Origin: a virus
Length of the DNA stretch: 43,109 nucleotides
Strand: one strand, 5' to 3'
Virus record (IMG/VR): IMGVR_UViG_3300023181_000014
Coordinates: 1-43,109 of that record
Below the pieces are notes generated by a model. It had not been told where the DNA came from and did no database searches. It saw only the letters and a list, made by a program, of their open reading frames with translations. Below, piece by piece: positions 3,086 through 43,109 of this stretch (its first letter is position 1; each line of letters begins with the position of its first letter). The translations under genes were made by a program, and so were the position numbers.

Positions 3086-3336
3086 TGCAAGTGGGAATGA
3101 TCGAAGGTATGACACGAGTCATAGGCAAATCACAAGGATATTTCGGCCTACCTCTCCGGGATGTCGTGCTTGACAGCACTGTGACAGGGCCAGAAACGCC
3201 AGCCATGGAGACAGCGTGGTTTCCCACTCCAAAGGAAATCGACGCTATCAATGCGGGCGCTCCCATCATTCTATGCATCATCGGGACTGGACATCCGCCA
3301 GTGATGCTTTCAGTCGGGCAGGAGCCAACGCCATGA
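3085..3336 (+). CDS. Hypothetical protein
   Basis: An 83-residue protein. Tandem start codons (GTG 3082, ATG 3085) follow GGGAG at 3074-3078; I take the ATG. The central segment ([32 protein letters not shown], given here only in part: [23 protein letters not shown]) is a hydrophobic strand pair near the C-terminus and is recognisable in other phage small proteins of unknown function. Gene ends overlap the next start by ATGA. Confidence 0.65.
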
Positions 3337-3863
3337 ACATCCATACCCACATTTCCGAAGCAGAGCAAAGACGATCGGCAGCAGCAACACGCGCCCGCCT
3401 GATGGGAAAGCCTGCGCGAGTGCCACCACGGCTGGCGCCAGTGGTGCAGATAGCTGCCAGCCGCAAGCCAGTCGATGTGTCCTACCACATGGTTCTGTAC
3501 CGGGCATATCAGAAGCAGCGGGAGAGAGCGTTCGCCATGTCCAGTTCATTCCAAATGGTCAATTCCACCGAGTACAGGCCATACGAGACCAAGATCACCT
3601 TCGACTTCAAAACAGTGGTGAAGACCATGAAGGAAATCGCCATGGAGGTTCTGGACGATTATCCGGGCGTGAGCCTGGAGGAGGTGCAGGGGCCACGCCG
3701 TACTCGCAACTTCGTTCGGCCGCGCCAGATGGCAATGTACCGGATTATCAAGGAGCGACCAGACCTTTCGTATCCGATGGTTGGTAGGTTTTTCGGCGGT
3801 CGCGATCATACAACGGTTCTTCATGCGGTGCGGAAGATTGAAAAGCAGAGGGCCACAGCATGA
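3333..3863 (+). CDS. Stand-alone DnaA domain IV-like protein
   Basis: A 176-residue protein. ATG 3333 is supported by GGAG at 3321-3324 and by the ATGA overlap with the preceding gene. The C-terminal 75 residues match DnaA domain [16 protein letters not shown], then [20 protein letters not shown], the DnaA signature helix-turn-helix (about residues 135-170). The N-terminal 100 residues are basic and have no AAA+ motifs (no Walker A or B), so it cannot act as an ATP-dependent initiator. It could bind DnaA boxes to block host initiation, to help phage initiation, or as a regulator. Domain call strong, role inferred. Confidence 0.85.
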
Positions 3864-4345
3864 CACTAGATAGCATCATCGAAAGGCTGGAGAAGGCGGA
3901 AGGCGGCGATCGGGAGCTTGATTGCTGGATTGGTTACGTTGCAGACCTGAGAGAAGACGACATGTCATGGCGCGGCAAGATCGATAAGTTTGGGATAGAC
4001 CATGCTGTCGCGGCAGCAACGGGCTATTCAAATGTGTGGCGCTCGGTCCTGCCATATTACACATCGTCCATGAACGCGGCGATCACCCTTGTTGAAACCA
4101 TGCTTCCAGGCTGGGCATGGAAGGTCGGAACATGCTGCGTATCTGATGATGCTTGGGTCACGCCTGATTTCAACAGCCCAATTCATGGCGAGCGTCTGAA
4201 GCGGGAATTCCCCGATCTCAAGGCCGGTAGCGTTTTCGATACGGGTGTTGACATTGATCTTCGCCCATCGGGACGGCCGGCCATTGCATTGTGCATTGCG
4301 GTTCTCACTGCCCTCAAAGCCAAGCAGGTGGGGGTAGGGGAATGA
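3860..4345 (+). CDS. Phage ABA sandwich domain protein
   Basis: A 161-residue protein with the pattern of the phage ABA sandwich family: an N-terminal [16 protein letters not shown], a central [14 protein letters not shown], a GW-rich strand ([11 protein letters not shown]) and a C-terminal [12 protein letters not shown] helix. The family is common in early regions of alphaproteobacterial and enterobacterial phages and has no known function. It overlaps both neighbours by ATGA, so it belongs to a tightly coupled operon. Confidence 0.8.
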
Positions 4346-4626
4346 GCAAGAAACACCCAGGATATGCAATCAACCCCATGCAGCCCCTCCCAAAGCGGTG
4401 GTTCGACGCGATCGGCCCCATCCGCGTCATATGTGAACCGCACGCGGGGTGGATCATGGCCCGCCGTCACGACAACGCCACTCCTTTTGTGCTTTCGGTC
4501 AGGGAGCTTCTCGGCGGTAAATTCACCCCCATTCTTCCAAAGTCCACAACGAACGTTCGCCAGCGTGTTGCTGAAATAAACGCCCGCCACGAGGCAGCAA
4601 TCAGGGATTATGCCAATGGGAAGTAA
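4342..4626 (+). CDS. Hypothetical protein
   Basis: A 94-residue protein starting [15 protein letters not shown] at the ATG that overlaps the preceding stop. It has two aromatic/basic strands (WFDAIGPIRVICEPHAGWIMARR) and a short C-terminal helix (RVAEINARHEAAIRDY). It overlaps the next gene by 17 nt. No recognisable domain. Confidence 0.65.
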   Translation: MSKKHPGYAINPMQPLPKRWFDAIGPIRVICEPHAGWIMARRHDNATPFVLSVRELLGGKFTPILPKSTTNVRQRVAEINARHEAAIRDYANGK

Positions 4627-5176
4627 GCTTCAGAAAATCCGCAGCCCAAAGAGGGCGCGTGGCCGGCCGAAACTGGAGAATGTAGCTCGGGAACCAAACG
4701 GGCGCGTCTCTCGCTCCCCGCTGGCATCCAACAGCAATGAGATAGGGCGCAGGGCGGATCGCCTTGGCCTTAGCGCCGACCAGGCTCGCGACCAGAAGGC
4801 GGCGACATTCATTGGTTACCTCAACATCCTCGGCAAGCATGATGGCATCAGCAACGATCAATACGAGGCGGCGCTCAAATACATGGATCTGCGTCGGTCA
4901 TACCATCTGGCCATCAAGGCCCCCAATGCAGAGCGCAGCGACGAGGGAACGGGTTGCCATTCGCAGGAGATAAGCGATAGCTACATTGATTGGTGTCGTA
5001 ACACGATCGATCGTCATGACGACTGCAGGAAGGCCATCCAGCAGGCCCAAAACCAGAGCCGTTGCAACCTTTGGGCCGCTCTGGATCTGTGCTTTATCCG
5101 CGACGAAAGAATGCTCCACATGATTGGGGATATTCGCTTACTGTGCAATGCGTTGATAATGTTTTTTCGTGTTTGA
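4610..5176 (+). CDS. Conserved rhizobial phage protein, DNA-binding-like N-terminus
   Basis: A 188-residue protein. The N-terminus is strongly basic (KLQKIRSPKRARGRPK), with the GRP[KR] AT-hook-like core, followed by VAREPNGRVSR and a helical region ending ISNDQYEAALKYMDLRRSYH. This combination is a recurrent hypothetical protein of alphaproteobacterial prophages, usually just ahead of the packaging genes. A small DNA-binding or packaging accessory role is plausible but unproven. Alternative start ATG 4616. It is the last gene before a 480-bp largely non-coding stretch. Confidence 0.7.
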   Translation: MPMGSKLQKIRSPKRARGRPKLENVAREPNGRVSRSPLASNSNEIGRRADRLGLSADQARDQKAATFIGYLNILGKHDGISNDQYEAALKYMDLRRSYHLAIKAPNAERSDEGTGCHSQEISDSYIDWCRNTIDRHDDCRKAIQQAQNQSRCNLWAALDLCFIRDERMLHMIGDIRLLCNALIMFFRV

Positions 5177-5541: not shown

Positions 5542-5623
5542 GTTATTGTTAGAATAATCATATCGCCGAATGCCAAGGTCTCACCGGCCAGTAGAAATAA
5601 TATTCCACAAACAGACTGAAACA

Positions 5624-5811: not shown

Positions 5812-5876
5812 TGCAGGCACTCACGCTCATCCTTGAGCAGAAACAGCCAAGCAAGAACGTTCGATAGGAATACGAG

Positions 5877-6074
5877 ATGGCTCTCACCAGCAAAATCCTT
5901 TCTGCCGCGATCAAGATGGCATCCGCTCGCCAATCCCCTGATGTGATGCGGATTTCACAGGAAACAGCGCGGTCCTTCATCAAGGGGCAGATGCCAAATC
6001 TTCACATGCTCTACAGCGCCGCTTGGGATGCTGGGTACACCGTCAACGGCATCCATCCTCCCAAGCACGTGTAA
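5877..6074 (+). CDS. Small hypothetical protein
   Basis: A 65-residue helical protein beginning MALTSKILSAAIKMAS, with AGGAA before the ATG. No recognised domain. It lies immediately upstream of the small terminase candidate and may be part of the same transcript. Confidence 0.6.
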   Translation: MALTSKILSAAIKMASARQSPDVMRISQETARSFIKGQMPNLHMLYSAAWDAGYTVNGIHPPKHV

Positions 6075-6375: not shown

Positions 6376-7757
6376 TGTCAGTTCTTGAACTCAGTGCCCC
6401 CGAGGTACTGATGCCGCTATTGCAGCCCGCTCGATACAAGGCGGCGCATGGTGGACGAGGAGGAGCTAAATCACATTTCTTCGCAGAACAGATCATTGTT
6501 CGATGCTTCGCCAAGAAAACGCGTGTTGCCTGCATTCGTGAAGTCCAGGCCACCATAAAGGATTCGGTTCGCCAGCTCTTGGTGGACAAGATTGAAAAGC
6601 TAGGGCTCGGGTCTGAGTTCGAATGCCTTGAGACGGAGATACGCGGCAAGAATGGTTCGCTGATCGTTTTCAAGGGCATGCAGAGCTACAACGCCCACAA
6701 CATCAAGTCCCTTGAGGATTTTGACATCGCATGGGTTGAGGAAGCCCAGACGCTCTCTGAGACATCGCTGCGGTTGCTTCGCCCCACCATTCGTAAGGAT
6801 GGTTCGGAGATCTGGTTTTCTTGGAACCCACGCCACGACACGGACGCGGTGGATAAGTTCTTCCGGGGCGATAACAAGCCGCACAACTCAATCGTCATCC
6901 CGGTCAACTGGTACGACAATCCTTGGTTTCCTCCGATCCTAGAGGATGAGAAGAACCAGGACTACGAAAACGACCCCGAGATGGCCGACCATGTATGGGG
7001 CGGCGGATATGAGCGCATCACAGAGGGCGCCTACTACGCCAAGCAGATTGCAGCGGCAGAACGTGAAAGGCGCGTTGGCTACTTCCCTCACATCATCGGA
7101 AGCCCGGTCTACACTGGCTGGGATATCGGAGTGGACGATTACACGGCTATCTGGTTCTTCCAGATCATCGACGGCGTAAGGGTCCGCATCATCGATTATT
7201 ATGAGGCATCGAACCTTGGCCCGCAGGACATCCTGCCCGAGGCAATGCCCGAATACACACAGGATGTTCAAGACAGAGCGGCAGCAATGGTCGAATTGGA
7301 TCGATCAGCCCGGTTTGCCTATCAGCGCCATTTCTTCCCGCACGATGTGAAGGTGAGAGAATGGGGCTCAGGCGGCAAGGCCCGCGTCCAGACGCTTACT
7401 GAATGCGGTATGCCGATGGAGAGCATAAAGCCTGGCGCCGCTCAAAACCCTGAAGAGCGCATCAACGCTGTTCGTCGCATCCTGCCCATATGTGAGTTTC
7501 ACCAGACAAAGCGCGTGATGCTGGGCCTACAAAGGCTTCGCAGATACAGCCGCAAGAAGAACGAAGCGCTCGGCACCTATCTTGGCCCGCTTCATGACGA
7601 GAACAGCCACGGCGCTGATGCCTTCGGAGAGTTTGCAGCCAACTGCGGCATTTCCCCTCCCAAGGAAAAGCCCAAGGCTCTGCCAATCCCGCCACCCGGC
7701 AAGATTATTGCCCCTCCGCCTCCCATGGCGCGTTCATCGAAGCGGATCTCACTATGA
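6375..7757 (+). CDS. terL: Terminase large subunit (Terminase_3, PBSX type)
   Basis: The 460-residue DNA-packaging motor. The N-terminal ATPase has a Walker A-like GGRGGAKS at residues 26-33 and a Walker B FDIAWVEEA around 116-124. The C-terminal RNase H-like nuclease starts with the YTGWDIGVDDYTAIW strand (first catalytic Asp, about residue 245), with later acidic residues near HDENSHGADAF. The length is normal for the family. It couples ATP hydrolysis to DNA translocation through the portal and cuts concatemers. It overlaps the flanking genes by 1 and 4 nt, so the packaging operon is translationally coupled. Confidence 0.95.
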   Translation: MSVLELSAPEVLMPLLQPARYKAAHGGRGGAKSHFFAEQIIVRCFAKKTRVACIREVQATIKDSVRQLLVDKIEKLGLGSEFECLETEIRGKNGSLIVFKGMQSYNAHNIKSLEDFDIAWVEEAQTLSETSLRLLRPTIRKDGSEIWFSWNPRHDTDAVDKFFRGDNKPHNSIVIPVNWYDNPWFPPILEDEKNQDYENDPEMADHVWGGGYERITEGAYYAKQIAAAERERRVGYFPHIIGSPVYTGWDIGVDDYTAIWFFQIIDGVRVRIIDYYEASNLGPQDILPEAMPEYTQDVQDRAAAMVELDRSARFAYQRHFFPHDVKVREWGSGGKARVQTLTECGMPMESIKPGAAQNPEERINAVRRILPICEFHQTKRVMLGLQRLRRYSRKKNEALGTYLGPLHDENSHGADAFGEFAANCGISPPKEKPKALPIPPPGKIIAPPPPMARSSKRISL

Positions 7758-29792: not shown

Positions 29793-30758
29793 TCATTTTT
29801 TGCCGAAAACCCGGTCGATCACTTCCCGGTTATTATCCCCCTCAACATACGTCTCCATGAGCAGCCGGCGCGATTTCCACCCGCCGTGGTCACCAGTCGT
29901 AGCCGCGTCCACGCCGTTGCGAACGATCATCTCTGTAGCAAAGCCATGTCTGCCAAATTCATGGCTTGTGAGACGCGATAGGCCCGCGTGCTTTATCACC
30001 TTGTCCACCCGCTTTTTGATGGTCGATCGGTTTGCAGCCGCAAAAACTAGTGTCGGGTGAAGGCTGCGAATGTTTGCCAGGTCGATGACCATGGCGCGGG
30101 TCAGGAAGACCTTTCGTGGCGTCGTCTTGGTCTTGGAGAGGAATGCGGTCCCGAGCTGCAGATTCACGTCATCCCATGTCAGCCTGCAGGCCTCAGAGAC
30201 GCGGGCAGCGGTTTCGAACATGAACCGGGCCACAGCGGCGGTCTCTGGCATGTTGAGCTTCTTTGCGGCCTTACTGAAGGCGTCAAGCCATTCCTTGCTC
30301 CCTGCTGGGCGCGAGGTGCGCTCTTCCTTGAAGCGGGTGACTTTCACAGGGTCACAATGGCCGGCATCAGCCGCGTGGTTGATGATAGCCCGCATTGGCG
30401 TCACAACCTGTCGGTTTAGCGTGGCATTGGCTGCTTTCGGGTATAGCTTCTTCGCTGCCTTACGGATCTCAAGGCCGGTGATGTCCTTCACCTTCCAATT
30501 CTTGAAATGCTTAAGGAGGGGCGCCGTGAACCGCCGATCGCGGCCATCATCAAAATAGGCTGCGACAATCTCAGGGAAGGTTAGGACCGCCTTTTCACCG
30601 TGGACAGCGGCACGACGGAGCCTCGCTTCGTGTTGATGCGCGATGTCTTCCGCGAGCCTTCTGTCGCTCGTCTTAGAAGATTTTCGAACCCGTGTTCCGT
30701 CAACGGTGAAATCATACCACCAAATTGTTCCGTCTTTTCTTGTGTAGACGTATGGCAA
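29793..30758 (-). CDS. int: Tyrosine recombinase integrase
   Basis: A 321-residue integrase counted from TTG 30758, which follows a GGAG; the frame extends to 30842 but that part lies in the excisionase gene and is not integrase-like. The N-terminal PYVYTRKDGTIWWYDF is the usual arm-binding start. Catalytic residues fit the family: Arg186 (AARVSEACRL), Lys211, His266 and Arg270 in SHEFGRHGFAT (a HxxxRH variant), Trp294 (HGGWK) and the nucleophile Tyr304 (METYVEGD). It would recombine attP at 29643-29686 with a host tRNA-Ser gene. Confidence 0.92.
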   Translation of the reverse strand: MPYVYTRKDGTIWWYDFTVDGTRVRKSSKTSDRRLAEDIAHQHEARLRRAAVHGEKAVLTFPEIVAAYFDDGRDRRFTAPLLKHFKNWKVKDITGLEIRKAAKKLYPKAANATLNRQVVTPMRAIINHAADAGHCDPVKVTRFKEERTSRPAGSKEWLDAFSKAAKKLNMPETAAVARFMFETAARVSEACRLTWDDVNLQLGTAFLSKTKTTPRKVFLTRAMVIDLANIRSLHPTLVFAAANRSTIKKRVDKVIKHAGLSRLTSHEFGRHGFATEMIVRNGVDAATTGDHGGWKSRRLLMETYVEGDNNREVIDRVFGKK

Positions 30759-30955
30759 GGTGATGGCTCCGGTTTGGCGGCATTGATGATTGTGTCTATG
30801 TCGGTGGGCAGCAAGAACATCGCTTTTCCAATGATCCTGCAAGCCCCGATCGATCGGGCTCGCTCTCGCAGTGTCCTTTCGGATATCTGGATGCCCGCCG
30901 CCTGGAGCTTGGCAACGGCCGTCGCCGGGGATATGGCTTCGTCAAGGACCGTCAT
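30581..30955 (-). CDS. Excisionase-like DNA-binding protein
   Basis: A 124-residue minus-strand gene directly before the integrase, overlapping it by about 178 nt in another frame. The N-terminal 60 residues (SPATAVAKLQAAGIQISER, TLRERARSIGACRIIGKAMF in part) form a winged-helix/HTH_17-like recombination directionality factor of the rhizobial type. The C-terminus is Ser/Thr/Lys-rich (GSRKTSRINTKRGSVV). Its start overlaps the preceding stop by ATGA. Likely Xis; the long C-terminal overlap with int is unusual but the tail reads like protein. Confidence 0.7.
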   Translation of the reverse strand: MTVLDEAISPATAVAKLQAAGIQISERTLRERARSIGACRIIGKAMFLLPTDIDTIINAAKPEPSPCHTSTQEKTEQFGGMISPLTEHGFENLLRRATEGSRKTSRINTKRGSVVPLSTVKRRS

Positions 30956-37576: not shown

Positions 37577-37622
37577 TTTCGATGTAGCGACCGGATCACC
37601 GGTTGGGTGGTTGTGGCCGCTG
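37577..37622 (-). repeat. 46-bp leader repeat, copy 1
   Basis: This stretch (TTTCGATGTAGCGACC at its plus-strand start, GTGGCCGCTG at its end) is 45/46 identical to 38144-38189. It lies about 25 nt upstream of the start of the gene at 37368-37553. It holds no ribosome-binding site and no clear promoter. Confidence 0.85.
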
Positions 37623-38143: not shown

Positions 38144-38189
38144 TTTCGATGTAGCGACCAGATCACCGGTTGGGTGGTTGTGGCCGCTG
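38144..38189 (-). repeat. 46-bp leader repeat, copy 2
   Basis: Second copy of the repeat, with one difference (A for G after GCGACC). It lies about 16 nt upstream of the start of the gene at 37916-38128, between that start and the leftward promoter. A degenerate third copy is visible at about 37332-37370 before the gene at 37111. It may be a shared 5' leader or a site of homologous exchange of small genes. Confidence 0.85.
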
Positions 38190-38200
38190 CTTACCTACAC

Positions 38201-38229
38201 AACATCGCACGCTTTTGCGGTCACGTCAA
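38201..38229 (-). promoter_or_regulatory. Leftward early promoter with operator in spacer (PL-like)
   Basis: Read on the minus strand: TTGACG (38229-38224), a 17-base spacer, then GATGTT (38206-38201). The spacer contains CGCAAAAGCGTGC, identical to the one in the rightward promoter at 38804-38832 at the same distance from the boxes. Repressor bound there would block RNA polymerase. The -10 is weak (3/6), the -35 good (5/6). It would drive the leftward operon from 38128 to the integrase. Confidence 0.7.
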
Positions 38230-38252
38230 GCGTGGTGAACGCAAAAAAGTGC
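38207..38252. promoter_or_regulatory. 46-bp imperfect palindrome, double operator
   Basis: Outer arms GCAC/GTGC, then TTTTGCG/CGCAAAA, then TCAC/GTGA pair symmetrically around a 10-base centre, 15 of the outer 18 positions matching. It consists of two inverted copies of the operator, CGCAAAAGCGTGC (minus, 38207-38219) and CGCAAAAAAGTGC (plus, 38240-38252), placed head-to-head with the leftward -35 box near the centre. This suggests two cooperatively bound repressor dimers. Confidence 0.7.
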
Positions 38253-38446
38253 ACGACAAAACGGCTGAAAACGTGGTATAGGAATTTATCCCCATTTACA
38301 AAGCGCACGCACTGGCGTTCAATGGATGGGCAGGGATGGAGCCTGTAACAGGGGAGGGATTATCGCCACTATGGATATGACGGAGAAAATCGCGCTGTCG
38401 TGGATGGCGCTCACACGGGCACAGCGGGACGTTGTGATTTTGAACG
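38253..38446. other. Intergenic region downstream of repressor
   Basis: About 190 bp between the double operator and the repressor stop. TTATCCCCA at 38286-38294 differs by one base from a DnaA box (TTATCCACA). A plus-strand frame from 38371 begins MDMTEKIALSWMALTRAQ but runs antisense into the repressor gene and lacks a well-placed ribosome-binding site, so I do not call it. No terminator with T-run was seen. Confidence 0.3.
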
Positions 38447-38752
38447 TTATTTGTTCTGGCGAGTTTCGAGCAGACCTAACAGGTGCTCTTTCTCTTTGTC
38501 GGACATACCCGCCACGATCTTCAGAAATTCTTCATCCTGCCGAGACATTTCCACGCCCGTAAATATATAAGCCAGGCTGATCTCTAAAACTTCTGCCAGC
38601 TTGACTACCCTGTCAGTGCTGGGCGCTTTTTCGCCAGCTAGCAGTTCACTCACAAAATTGGTTCCGAACCCGCATTCGCGTGCGATTTCGCGACGGGAAC
38701 GACCGTCTTTCTCAATTGCATCTGTGAGTCTGGTTCGCCAATCGGTAGCCAT
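38447..38752 (-). CDS. XRE-family phage repressor (short CI-like)
   Basis: A 101-residue protein. Residues about 18-65 form an XRE helix-turn-helix (SRREIARECGFGTNFVSELL, then LAEVLEISLAYIFTG). The C-terminal 35 residues (EEFLKIVAGMSDKEKEHLLG in part) are helical, with no S24 LexA-like peptidase domain, so RecA-mediated self-cleavage is not expected. It is divergent from the Cro-like gene and leftward of the rightward promoter. It is the probable lysogeny repressor binding CGCAAAAGCGTGC. No ribosome-binding site is seen before the ATG. Confidence 0.85.
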   Translation of the reverse strand: MATDWRTRLTDAIEKDGRSRREIARECGFGTNFVSELLAGEKAPSTDRVVKLAEVLEISLAYIFTGVEMSRQDEEFLKIVAGMSDKEKEHLLGLLETRQNK

Positions 38753-38803
38753 GCTGCTAATTACCAGATTTCAAATTAATTGCATGAACGTTGTTGCGGG
38801 CAC

Positions 38804-38832
38804 TTGCGGCGAACGCAAAAGCGTGCATAATA
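38804..38832 (+). promoter_or_regulatory. Rightward early promoter with operator in spacer (PR-like)
   Basis: TTGCGG (38804-38809), 17-base spacer, ATAATA (38827-38832). The spacer ends in CGCAAAAGCGTGC (38814-38826), identical in sequence and offset to the leftward promoter; 15 of 17 spacer bases are the same. TTGCG and CGCAA (38804-38818) form an additional inverted repeat over the -35. Transcription should start about 7 bases after the -10, at or next to the ATG at 38839. Confidence 0.75.
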
Positions 38833-38838
38833 GCCCTC

Positions 38839-39054
38839 ATGCAAACGAACCTTCTCACAGACATCGAAGCCTTCCTTGCTGAAACAGGCATGAGCGAACC
38901 GAACTTCTGTAGGTCAGTCGGCAATGGCCGATTGTTCGAGCGGCTTCGCAGTGTCGGCGTCAGGGGGAAGTCTGGGCGAGTATGGCCCGAAACCGAAGCT
39001 GAAATCCGCGCTTTCATGATCGCCCATCGGCGCATGGAAAAGGCGTCTGCGTAA
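38839..39054 (+). CDS. Cro-like regulator, probably leaderless
   Basis: A 71-residue protein starting MQTNLLTDIEAFLAETGM. It has the pattern of short rhizobial phage Cro-like proteins (DIEAFLAETGMSEPNFCRSV, then RVWPETEAEIRAFM). The ATG lies 7 bases after the -10 ATAATA and has no Shine-Dalgarno sequence, so the mRNA is predicted to start at the ATG. It is divergent from the repressor and first in the rightward operon. Probably represses early promoters and opposes the repressor. Confidence 0.75.
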   Translation: MQTNLLTDIEAFLAETGMSEPNFCRSVGNGRLFERLRSVGVRGKSGRVWPETEAEIRAFMIAHRRMEKASA

Positions 39055-39983
39055 TGAGCGGCCGCTCTTCCTCACCCGGAGGTGTGTTCGCCGTATCGAG
39101 GGGGATTTTTGAAGATCCTGATTTTCCCCCTGAGCCATTCACACAGCGAGAGGCCTTTATCTGGCTGGTCGCAAGTGCGGCATGGAAGGAACACAAAACA
39201 CGAGGTTCTTTTGGGCCGGTAATTTTGGAACGAGGCGAATTTTGCTTCTCTGTCAGGTTCTTAGCTGAGCGTTGGAAATGGTCAAAATCGCGCGTCGATC
39301 GCTTCATTTTGGCGCTGAAAAAGCGGGACACAATACGGGACAGCAAGCGGGACAGAGAGCAAGTCTGGATTATCAATAAATACAATGACTTCCAGATACT
39401 GGCCGCACCAAAGAGGGACAGCAAGCGGGACACGAAGAGGGACAGCAGCGGGACAGCAGCGGGACAGCAGCGGGACAAAGAAGAAGACATTGAAGACATT
39501 GAAGACATTGAAAGCTCCTCACTACGTTCGGAGAGGTTTGGCCCCGACGAGGCGTTTTCTGAGTTTTGTGAAGTGGTCGGAAAGGCAGGGTTCAATCTTC
39601 CCAAGCTCCTTACCAAGGACAGACGGGAGAAGCTCAAAGCCAGACTGGCTGAGCACGGCAGAGAGGCATGGGCCGAAGCCGTGAGGCGGATGGCGGCTAG
39701 CAAGTTCTGCCGGGGTGAGAATGAGAGGGGTTGGAAGGCTGACCTGGATTTCGTCCTTCAGTCTAAATCCTTCAACGGTCTTATCGAAGGCAAGTACGAC
39801 GACAAAATACCGGTGCTGAAGCCTGCCCCCAAGACGGCTTTCCAGCAACACCAAGACGAATGTGCAGCTGAACTCGACAAAGTAATCAACAGGAGCCGAG
39901 GGAATGACGAATTCACTGACAACATCATCGACCTTGCAGCGACAGATTTCCGTGGCCACGGCAAGGCTGACTCCGGCCGGTGA
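39054..39983 (+). CDS. Replication initiator-like protein with internal iterons
   Basis: A 309-residue protein, TAATG-coupled to the Cro-like gene. The N-terminal 100 residues (REAFIWLVASAAWKEH, GEFCFSVRFLAERWKWSKSR, VDRFILALKKRDTI) are a winged-helix of the phage replication initiator type. The middle is low complexity, KRDSKRDTKRDSSG and EEDIEDIEDIESS, caused by DNA repeats (iterons). The C-terminal part is a helical domain that ends in FVLQSKSFNGLIEGKYD, a common initiator ending. It would bind its own gene to open the origin, as lambda O does. Confidence 0.8.
   Translation: MSGRSSSPGGVFAVSRGIFEDPDFPPEPFTQREAFIWLVASAAWKEHKTRGSFGPVILERGEFCFSVRFLAERWKWSKSRVDRFILALKKRDTIRDSKRDREQVWIINKYNDFQILAAPKRDSKRDTKRDSSGTAAGQQRDKEEDIEDIEDIESSSLRSERFGPDEAFSEFCEVVGKAGFNLPKLLTKDRREKLKARLAEHGREAWAEAVRRMAASKFCRGENERGWKADLDFVLQSKSFNGLIEGKYDDKIPVLKPAPKTAFQQHQDECAAELDKVINRSRGNDEFTDNIIDLAATDFRGHGKADSGR
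39325..39477 (+). repeat. GGGACA iterons, probable replication origin
   Basis: Nine copies of GGGACA lie in two groups. Group A starts at 39325, 39337 and 39349 (12-base steps). Group B starts at 39415, 39427, 39439, 39450, 39461 and 39472 (12 then 11-base steps). The 60 bases between include an AT-rich piece near 39370-39390. Near helical-turn spacing and location in the initiator gene are typical of a theta origin. Confidence in the repeat is high; the origin function is inference. Confidence 0.8.
39486..39512 (+). repeat. Three tandem 9-bp repeats
   Basis: GACATTGAA occurs three times in a row at 39486-39512, directly behind the last iteron, encoding the acidic DIEDIEDIE. It could be part of the unwinding region of the origin or simply a replication-slippage product. 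The composition is AT-richer than the iterons. Confidence 0.85.
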
Positions 39984-40551
39984 GGATGGAGTAGCTAAAG
40001 CGCTTCGGACGCTGCAGACGGGCGGTCTGGCTCTATCAAGCAACATCAAGGCCAAGGATATGAACACTGTTTATTCCTATGCACTTTCGGGGCTGTCGAG
40101 TGATGCTCTGACGATTGCCTGCAAAAAGCTTGTTCGAGGCGAATACGATATCGAGCGCAAGTCTATTATCCCTCTCCCCCCTGAGCTGGCTGCGATGGTT
40201 CGCGCCGAACAACGGTTGATCAGCGACGATCTGGCCAGAGCCCGCGCTACTATGGACTCGATGCAGCCAGCACCGGTTGTTGAGCGTTCGGTAGAGGCCC
40301 AAGCCCGCGTCAAAGCCCTTCGCCTTGGCTTCCTGAATGAGATCCAGGAATACAAACAGCGTAACGGCCTTACCCCTACGCCAGATGAATTCAACGATGA
40401 GAAGGCGGCATACTTCGAGCGCATCATGGCACTCAAAGACGCTCCCGTCATCACAGCCGAACAGATGGTTGAGCGCAACAAACGCTCCCTGCAGATCGCC
40501 AATTCCAACCTTTCCTCCTTCGAGGATACCAAATTAGAGGCACACAACTGA
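39904..40551 (+). CDS. Replication-associated hypothetical protein
   Basis: A 215-residue mostly helical protein that overlaps the initiator gene by 80 nt in another frame; GGAG lies 8 nt before the ATG. Segments VYSYALSGLSSDALTIACKK in part, LVRGEYDIERKSIIPLPPEL and a long C-terminal helix recall proteins that follow phage initiators. The location corresponds to lambda P-type helicase loaders, but no loader motif is visible. TGATG-coupled to the next gene. Confidence 0.65.
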   Translation: MTNSLTTSSTLQRQISVATARLTPAGEDGVAKALRTLQTGGLALSSNIKAKDMNTVYSYALSGLSSDALTIACKKLVRGEYDIERKSIIPLPPELAAMVRAEQRLISDDLARARATMDSMQPAPVVERSVEAQARVKALRLGFLNEIQEYKQRNGLTPTPDEFNDEKAAYFERIMALKDAPVITAEQMVERNKRSLQIANSNLSSFEDTKLEAHN

Positions 40552-40745
40552 TGGCTTACCTCACAAGTGCGCAAGTGCGAGACCGCTTCAAGATTTCAGA
40601 CGCAACTCTGTACCGGTGGGAACACGATGCGTCTCTTGGTTTCCCAAAGCCTCTGCAGGTGAAGCGCAGGAAGCTCTACGACGAAGACAAGATGAGAGAG
40701 TGGGAAAAGACCCGCTTCATGCCCGAAAACCCAAAGAGCGAATAG
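40551..40745 (+). CDS. AlpA/MerR-like DNA-binding protein
   Basis: A 64-residue protein. LTSAQVRDRFKISDATLYRW is a helix-turn-helix of the AlpA/HTH_17 group, followed by the usual FPKPLQVKRRKLYDEDKMRE wing. Such proteins regulate or assist excision in prophages. Here it lies in the replication operon, far from int, so a transcriptional role is more likely. Confidence 0.8.
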   Translation: MAYLTSAQVRDRFKISDATLYRWEHDASLGFPKPLQVKRRKLYDEDKMREWEKTRFMPENPKSE

Positions 40746-40756
40746 GAGCCATGTTG

Positions 40757-41170
40757 ATGCTGGACGTTCCCTTGGACAAGCACGCTCTGAAGCGGTCGCT
40801 AGTGCACTTAGAAACAACTACCGCGTACTCCCTCGATGAGGGGGATTTAGCAAATGCCATTAACGAATACCTTTCGTGGGTTAGTTCCGAAGACCGTGAT
40901 TTCTCTGACGAGATGCTTTCCGCCCGCAAGAAGTTCTCCCAACTGATCCTGGAACAGCCAGACGAATGCCATTCAAAGCTCTGGGAAGACTGCTTGCGTG
41001 AAATTGGCAGGCTGCCCCCTGAACCAAAGGCTCGTGCAGATGGGAAAAAGCTAATTTCCGAAGCCATAACTGAGCGCTTTGGAGATAAGTGCGCCAAGTA
41101 CGATCCCGATTGTGACACGTGCAGAGCTTGGAACTCCTTCGGAGCTTTGTTGGGGCATGCGCCTCCCTGA
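40757..41170 (+). CDS. Hypothetical protein with C-terminal cysteines
   Basis: A 137-residue protein. ATG 40757 has AGGAG at good spacing (8 nt); an ATG at 40751 is too close to it. Largely helical and charged, with a C-terminal CAKYDPDCDTC cluster that could bind metal. The last gene before a short gap with no strong signal. Function unknown. Confidence 0.65.
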   Translation: MLDVPLDKHALKRSLVHLETTTAYSLDEGDLANAINEYLSWVSSEDRDFSDEMLSARKKFSQLILEQPDECHSKLWEDCLREIGRLPPEPKARADGKKLISEAITERFGDKCAKYDPDCDTCRAWNSFGALLGHAPP

Positions 41171-41235
41171 AGGGATCGTAACCTAAAAGGTACGGGCAGA
41201 ACTTACGGGTTCCACCAAGTTTTGGGAGAGACGGA

Positions 41236-41466
41236 ATGAGCGAGATACCACTGGAAGTCCAAATGCATGCTGAGCGCCTTTATGATGAGGGCGGCTGTGA
41301 AGCCGTTCCAACAATCATAGCCAAGGCCATCATGGCAGAACGTGAACGCGCCGCGAAGATTGCTGAGGAATTCCCTCCAGTAATCACTGAAACGATGGAG
41401 TTGCCCCCGTCGCAGTACGACATCGCCACCGCTATCCGCACCCCATCTCCAGAGCATACCCCATGA
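41236..41466 (+). CDS. Small hypothetical protein
   Basis: A 76-residue helical protein with GGGAGAG before the ATG. It contains MHAERLYDEGGCEAVPTIIA in part and a helix AKAIMAERERAAKIAEEF, which resembles the end of many phage Ea22-like proteins. Possibly a small accessory module. Confidence 0.6.
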   Translation: MSEIPLEVQMHAERLYDEGGCEAVPTIIAKAIMAERERAAKIAEEFPPVITETMELPPSQYDIATAIRTPSPEHTP

Positions 41467-41515
41467 CCCCTCCCACCCTTAACCACCTCACAGACAGAAC
41501 CACGGGGAGGCTGCA

Positions 41516-42980: not shown

Positions 42981-43109
42981 ACATAGACTGGTCAAGCATT
43001 CTCCCTGTGGCTGCATTCATCACCTGCTTTGCAATGGCTGGAACCGTCATTGGCTACGGCATCTGCATTCGCATTGGACGGGTGGTATCCGGCCGGCGCG
43101 ACGAGAAGG
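42971..43109 (+). CDS. Small membrane protein, 5' part of joint-spanning gene
   Basis: ATG 42971 follows GGAG and overlaps the previous gene. The frame is open to the end of the window. On closing the circle it continues from base 128 to the TGA at 196-198, giving about 69 residues with one membrane helix. Function unknown. Confidence 0.75.
   Translation, partial: MFIDIDWSSILPVAAFITCFAMAGTVIGYGICIRIGRVVSGRRDEK
42983..43109. repeat. Terminal direct repeat (genome joint), right copy
   Basis: Exact copy of bases 1-127. It should be collapsed with the left copy when the circle is closed. It lies inside the coding sequence of the small membrane protein that starts at 42971. Confidence 0.95.

Follow-up and report, generated by a model that had tools for sequence, protein, structure and literature searches.

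A probable lambda-type immunity switch with its own operator class in a temperate phage related to rhizobial prophages

The immunity locus and its genome

We analyzed a virus record, complete at 43,109 bases (hereafter the window), whose 127-bp direct terminal repeat (1-127 and 42983-43109) indicates that the genome is probably complete and closes into a circle of 42,982 bp. On the left, the window carries genes for terminase, portal and tail proteins; recombination genes (Gam and Erf-like) were also found, and the presence of an integrase gene makes the phage temperate. Its relatives include prophages of Ensifer and of further rhizobia, and the closest cellular relative found for the switch lies in Ensifer adhaerens (L152). 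A DNA search of phage records returned short matches only, located in a methyltransferase and a hypothetical gene at ~42.2 kb. The switch is ~98% identical between the window and a sibling phage (L004), in which every operator site is unchanged. The adjoining replication genes (39054-41470 in the window, 3242-4771 in the sibling) are strongly divergent, a case of mosaic exchange. An element of 46-66 bp, GCGGCCACAACCACCCAACCGGTGATCTGGTCGCTACATCGAAA, is repeated before small genes of the left operon (window 37577-37622 and 38144-38189; sibling 5563-5590, 5872-5937 and 6447-6512), and an additional 83-aa gene sits between two of its copies in the sibling, which suggests modular gene exchange at repeated linkers.

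The features of the immunity locus are collected in Table 1. An earlier note on this DNA had described two early promoters that face outward and flank a 101-aa XRE open reading frame, an arrangement that was borne out. Its choice of the XRE protein as repressor is also supported, yet it omitted a second regulator, the divergent 71-aa Cro-like protein. The ATG of the DnaD-like gene overlaps the stop codon of the cro-like gene, and the 70-aa protein that opens the left operon matched no family in Pfam or PHROGs.

Table 1. Coordinates of the features discussed, in window numbering.
Feature	Position	Strand	Details
Integrase	29793-30842	-	PHROG 1, E 1.4e-34
First gene of left early operon, 70 aa	37916-38128	-	ORF; GGGAGA upstream of ATG
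Early left promoter pL	38201-38229	-	TTGACG 38229-38224, GATGTT 38206-38201
OL1 GACCGCAAAAGCGTGC	38207-38222	-	in pL spacer; matrix 15.6 bits
OL2 GAACGCAAAAAAGTGC	38237-38252	+	matrix 9.0 bits; 30 bp from OL1
OL3 GAACGCCAGTGCGTGC	38305-38320	-	matrix 14.2 bits; 68 bp from OL2
CI-type repressor, 101 aa	38447-38752	-	XRE HTH and two-helix C-terminus
Possible extra operator ACCCGCATTCGCGTGC	38668-38683	+	inside repressor gene; matrix 16.4 bits
Candidate -10 (TAATTA), repressor maintenance promoter	38758-38763	-	proposed from sequence and conserved geometry
OR2 GAACGTTGTTGCGGGC	38786-38801	+	matrix 7.8 bits; position kept in most relatives
Early right promoter pR	38804-38831	+	TTGCGG 38804-38809, CATAAT 38826-38831
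OR1 GAACGCAAAAGCGTGC	38811-38826	+	in pR spacer; matrix 19.2 bits, top match of the window
Cro-like regulator, 71 aa	38839-39054	+	divergent; predicted recognition helix NGRLFERLR; 81 homologous loci
Right early operon: replication initiation/DnaD-like protein	39054-39983	+	PHROGs 35955, 10469, 345

The repressor matches Pfam HTH_3 (6e-9; 36.2 bits against a curated cut-off of 23), and its AF2 model (pLDDT 90) places helices at residues 71-81 and 85-100 after the HTH. Foldseek returned SinR as the best match, over the full length, and also controller proteins and the P22 c2 domain. No match to a peptidase (RecA-cleavable C-terminal) domain was found in Pfam, the protein ending instead in the short two-helix tail, so that RecA-driven self-cleavage is unlikely. 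The Cro-like family (66-100 aa) is uncatalogued and belongs to no curated Cro/HTH family: none of 58 members matched Pfam at E 0.01, two of the 58 matched NCBIfam (one unrelated model), and three PHROGs were matched weakly by 1-3 members each. The model of the 71-aa protein is four-helical and HTH-like, with middling confidence (pLDDT 78), and its structural matches in the PDB are mostly XRE HTH proteins at non-significant scores (E above 3).

Early promoters and operator sites

The earlier note centred on a 13-mer, CGCAAAAGCGTGC, which indeed occurs exactly two times, at 38814-38826 (plus strand) and 38207-38219 (minus strand), within promoter spacers that agree at 15 of 17 bases (CGAACGCAAAAGCGTGC on the right, after TTGCGG, and TGACCGCAAAAGCGTGC on the left, after TTGACG). 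The word is part of the operator, but the conserved unit is a 16-bp dyad with 6-4-6 symmetry, GAACGC-N4-GCGTGC, and not the asymmetric 13-mer. The two copies claimed are present among at least five sites, five to six copies lying around the repressor gene. A third, near copy of the word (CGCAAAAAAGTGC, 38240-38252) was absent from that note, and its statement that the word ends right before the -10 box needs adjusting at pR, where the -10 is better read as CATAAT and overlaps the last operator base.

Taken by itself, the word proves little, because 13-mers with an opposite-strand partner are common in the window, where there are dozens of such pairs; its significance comes from its location. 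The longer repeats (D1/D2 of 18-20 nt and the 24-nt I2 pair) lie in two short intergenic stretches. Matches to the 13-mer with up to three mismatches were not commoner than chance in the window, and the 16-bp pattern with up to two mismatches gave 9 matches (two sites being counted on both strands) against 6.8 expected. Only position, or a matrix built from relatives, makes the case. TTG-N7-CGCAAAARMGTGC was found in 56 stretches of viral contigs, which are mostly chance since more than one such site occurred only in the sibling of this phage.

We derived a symmetric matrix from the sites of 21 relatives, leaving out this phage and its sibling, and ran it over the window. Six matches of at least 7.5 bits lie within 620 bp of the immunity region, against four in the other 42.5 kb (19604, 10.9 bits; 13560, 9.1; 2871, 8.0; 42129, 7.6), and within the 43 kb OR1 ranked first, OL1 third, OL3 fourth, OL2 seventh and OR2 ninth. 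OR2 and OL2 are thus weak matches in the window, and both half-sites of OL3 are identical to those of OR1. The site inside the repressor gene may be chance; its position is not kept in the nearest relative. OR1 and OR2 share the 86-bp intergenic region between the divergent genes, as in relatives, and OL1, OL2 and OL3 form a second cluster at the left early promoter (38207-38320). The centre of OR2 is 25 bp from that of OR1, and its distance to the start codon of the repressor is 41.5 bp, which would fit an autoactivation site; the candidate TAATTA box stands 5 nt before this ATG, and OR2 adjoins its -35 region. A different palindrome, TTGCG-GCGAA-CGCAA (38804-38818), was dropped after it proved absent from relatives.

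A strict sigma-70 scan with the E. coli consensus detected neither pR nor pL, and the -10 of pL is poor by E. coli standards. The TTG at the position of pR occurs also in relatives, and the E. adhaerens locus carries TTGACG-17-ATAATG at the position of pL. In five relatives (L067, L070, L095, L146 and L156) the pL leader seems to open with a 5' hairpin such as CCCCATC...GATGGGG, on the minus strand just downstream of OL1; this hairpin is absent from the window. As OR1 and OL1 fill the spacers of pR and pL and the -10 directly adjoins the operator, the ATG at 38839 falls ~7-8 nt after the -10. It lacks a Shine-Dalgarno sequence and lies approximately at the expected start of pR transcription, as holds across the class. 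Little or no leader is predicted for the cro-like transcript and, with TAATTA 5 nt before the ATG, for the repressor transcript as well.

Conservation and covariation among relatives

With the 71-aa ORF and two relatives as queries, we fetched 81 homologous loci from viral and bacterial contigs; the Cro-like query performed far better than repressor-based searches, which returned few relatives. A recognition helix of the type NGR[LFI][VFI], as in the window, is found in 37 of the 81 loci, and in 36 of these 37 the 45 bp preceding the ATG contain a GCACGC-N4-GCGTGC site (up to three mismatches), whose first base is 27-30 bp from the ATG in all but one. The 44 other loci have no such site in this stretch. 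The matrix used above was built from 21 of the NGR-class sites. The spacings are shared as well: the distance from the OR1 centre to the cro-like ATG is 19.5-22.5 bp (26.5 in L156), OR1 and OR2 are 23-25 bp apart in nearly all relatives, and OR2 is about 43 bp (41-46 bp) from the repressor ATG in most, the exceptions being a few loci together with those in which a different start codon had been called for the repressor. An OL1-OL2 distance of 29-31 bp, with OL1 in the spacer between TTG and -10, was seen in the window, its sibling and 13 more NGR-class loci, against a background of one such pair in 765 kb. A recognisable OL pair was absent within 2 kb in some relatives. L111, a near relative whose switch sequence is the same as that of the Ensifer locus, has a weaker third left site 68 bp from OL2.

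The earlier note had read the locus as an immunity region whose two early promoters both contain an operator, and had proposed a motif search in related prophages. Independent relatives share the layout, the spacer site and the spacings, which supports this reading, and the search found the 16-base operator in at least 20 related phages. The same comparison bears on whether the spacer match arose by chance or by recent duplication, in either case without regulatory meaning. Apart from the many paired 13-mers in the window, this reading could draw on the AAAA core that OL1 and OR1 share there; relatives, however, carry the same half-sites in the same places with differing cores, which refutes it as far as sequence can, and we give it next to no credence.

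Among named elements, the Roseicitreum plasmid and Synechococcus phage Yong-M2-251, which served as seeds of the homologue search, are both NGR and both have GCACGC sites. Agrobacterium phage Atu_ph08 combines NSELVGRLR with GTCCTCTATAGAGGAT in the same spacer, as predicted for the NSE class. For MinM1 (NDPHLVRQ), the site GCGGGATAAATCCCAC and the neighbouring GTGGGACAATTCCC suggest GTGGGA as the half-site, which differs at a single base from GTAGGA, a variant within its class. Similar dyads are present in the two early promoters of Ochrobactrum phage POI1126, but the divergent small protein of this phage is unrelated. No clear operator was found in Rhodobacter phage RcKemmy, whose Cro-like homologue reads NSRFVDRL, making it an exception or a diverged case. 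The annotated start of its gene 58 (L157 1351-1704) precedes by ~46 codons the ATG to which homology points, a difference that would follow from overlooking a leaderless start. The repressor genes of the Synechococcus phages Yong-M2-251 (L066 3001-3339, OM868082) and Ssp-JY39 (L065 2501-2789, PP438429) are unannotated, as is the divergent Cro-like gene of Yong-M2-251, where overlapping ORFs in other frames were called instead.

We then compared operator half-sites with the predicted Cro-like recognition helix in 51 non-redundant loci with a clean dyad. The two were correlated (Mantel r 0.73), and after removal of similarity in the rest of the protein the partial r was 0.66, a value reached in 0 of 2000 permutations, a count to be taken as an indication and not an exact probability since the loci are related sequences. 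The rest of the protein added little once the helix was known (0.12). Pairs of loci with the same helix triplet shared 84% of half-site bases, those with different triplets 42%. The classes are NGR with GCACGC, NSE with ATCCTC, NTE with TTCCGC, DPH with GTAGGG/A, DRH with GTGTGA/C, DWK/DWA with GCGGGA/G, DKP with GTTGGG/A and DTR with GACGGA, giving at least seven sister specificities beside that of the window. As judged from these sequences, the Cro-like recognition helix is the best predictor of the operator among the regulators.

This closeness raises the question of which protein uses the sites. They might serve the Cro-like protein alone, with the 101-aa repressor acting at other sequences or separately: the operator tracks the Cro-like helix (partial r 0.57) more closely than the repressor (partial r 0.26 with the Cro helix removed), and L153 and L156 have the same operator and very different repressors. 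Nevertheless, the repressor retains a weaker independent signal, as would follow if a single operator were read by the two proteins. Moreover, short repressors share operator-specific recognition segments, G-x-N[FYTW] when paired with GCACGC and G-x-GYVHS when paired with ATCCTC, and OR2 occupies an activating position for the repressor's own gene. We therefore consider a Cro-only role improbable and infer that the 101-aa repressor binds the operators. Less probable still is that a host regulator binds the sites, the phage merely borrowing its operator; lacking a LexA-type cleavable repressor, the phage does need some host input for induction, yet from one related phage to another the operator changes together with a helix that the phage itself encodes.

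A proposed switch and its relation to known systems

Overall, the sites, their positions, their conservation and their covariation are directly seen, and very probably they reflect a lambda-type CI/Cro lysis/lysogeny switch with its own operator class. From them we infer binding, promoter activity, autoactivation, looping and induction. The repressor, in the role of CI, and the Cro-like protein would bind the same 16-bp dyads, GNACGC-N4-GCGTKC. Because OR1 and OL1 lie between the -35 and -10 of pR and pL, their occupancy would shut off both early operons, silencing the replication genes rightward and Gam/Erf and other small genes leftward. From OR2, located ~42 bp ahead of the start codon of its gene, the repressor could also activate its own weak, probably leaderless transcript, and OL2, OL3 and OR2, ~580 bp apart, may permit cooperative binding and looping. 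The Cro-like protein, whose gene opens the right operon, would act as a competitor and shut the repressor off.

The operator class is new, its partner protein is uncatalogued, and the switch logic is ordinary. No description of this operator or of the Cro-like family was found in the open-access literature searched, an absence that is no proof. Most prophage operators in rhizobia and related bacteria are still unnamed, and here an operator, its copies and two likely readers were obtained from sequence. The natural regulator/operator pairs, with at least seven sister classes, form a test set for how a helix reads DNA, and a possible use is in predicting which prophages confer immunity to each other. 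A bolder and decidedly tentative idea is that ~three residues of a single helix set the half-site throughout the Cro-like family, the 6-4-6 frame within the pR spacer staying constant, and that the short-repressor branch is induced through a partner binding the SinR-like two-helix tail, not through RecA cleavage. If so, the operators and immunity groups of many alphaproteobacterial prophages would be predictable from sequence.

In lambda, OR1 lies inside pR and is ~24-25 bp from OR2, the centre of OR2 falls near position -42 relative to the repressor transcript, and the repressor mRNA has no space for a leader. The window resembles lambda in its divergent repressor and Cro-like genes, in OR1/OL1 inside the pR/pL spacers, in an OR1-OR2 distance of ~24-25 bp, in an OR2 ~42 bp from the repressor start, and in a repressor mRNA predicted to lack space for a leader. 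It differs in operator sequence and 6-4-6 symmetry, in a 101-aa repressor devoid of a RecA-cleavable domain, in a Cro-like protein from a different, uncatalogued family whose start codon is also predicted to be leaderless, in an OL1-OL2 spacing of 30 bp and in showing no clear OR3. Rhizobium phage 16-3 (C repressor, OL1, OL2, OR1, OR2) is likewise a temperate rhizobial phage with paired left and right operators, but these are of the ACAA/TTGT type, which would set the window apart. In a 2025 survey of phiLM21-like S. meliloti prophages, no operator sequences of lambda or 16-3 were found, and the operators of these prophages were not identified (PMC12429752). The repressor shares its HTH fold with SinR and P22 c2 and its two-helix tail with SinR, which has a two-helix C-terminal hook (PMC3163267). 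Sequence identity to either is ~16-20%, however, and SinR is a chromosomal biofilm regulator. Finally, the recognition helix of lambdoid Cro proteins reportedly predicts operator half-sites, according to Cordes and colleagues; half-sites are predictable from the recognition helix here as well, but the Cro-like family is a separate one, found mostly in phages of alphaproteobacteria.
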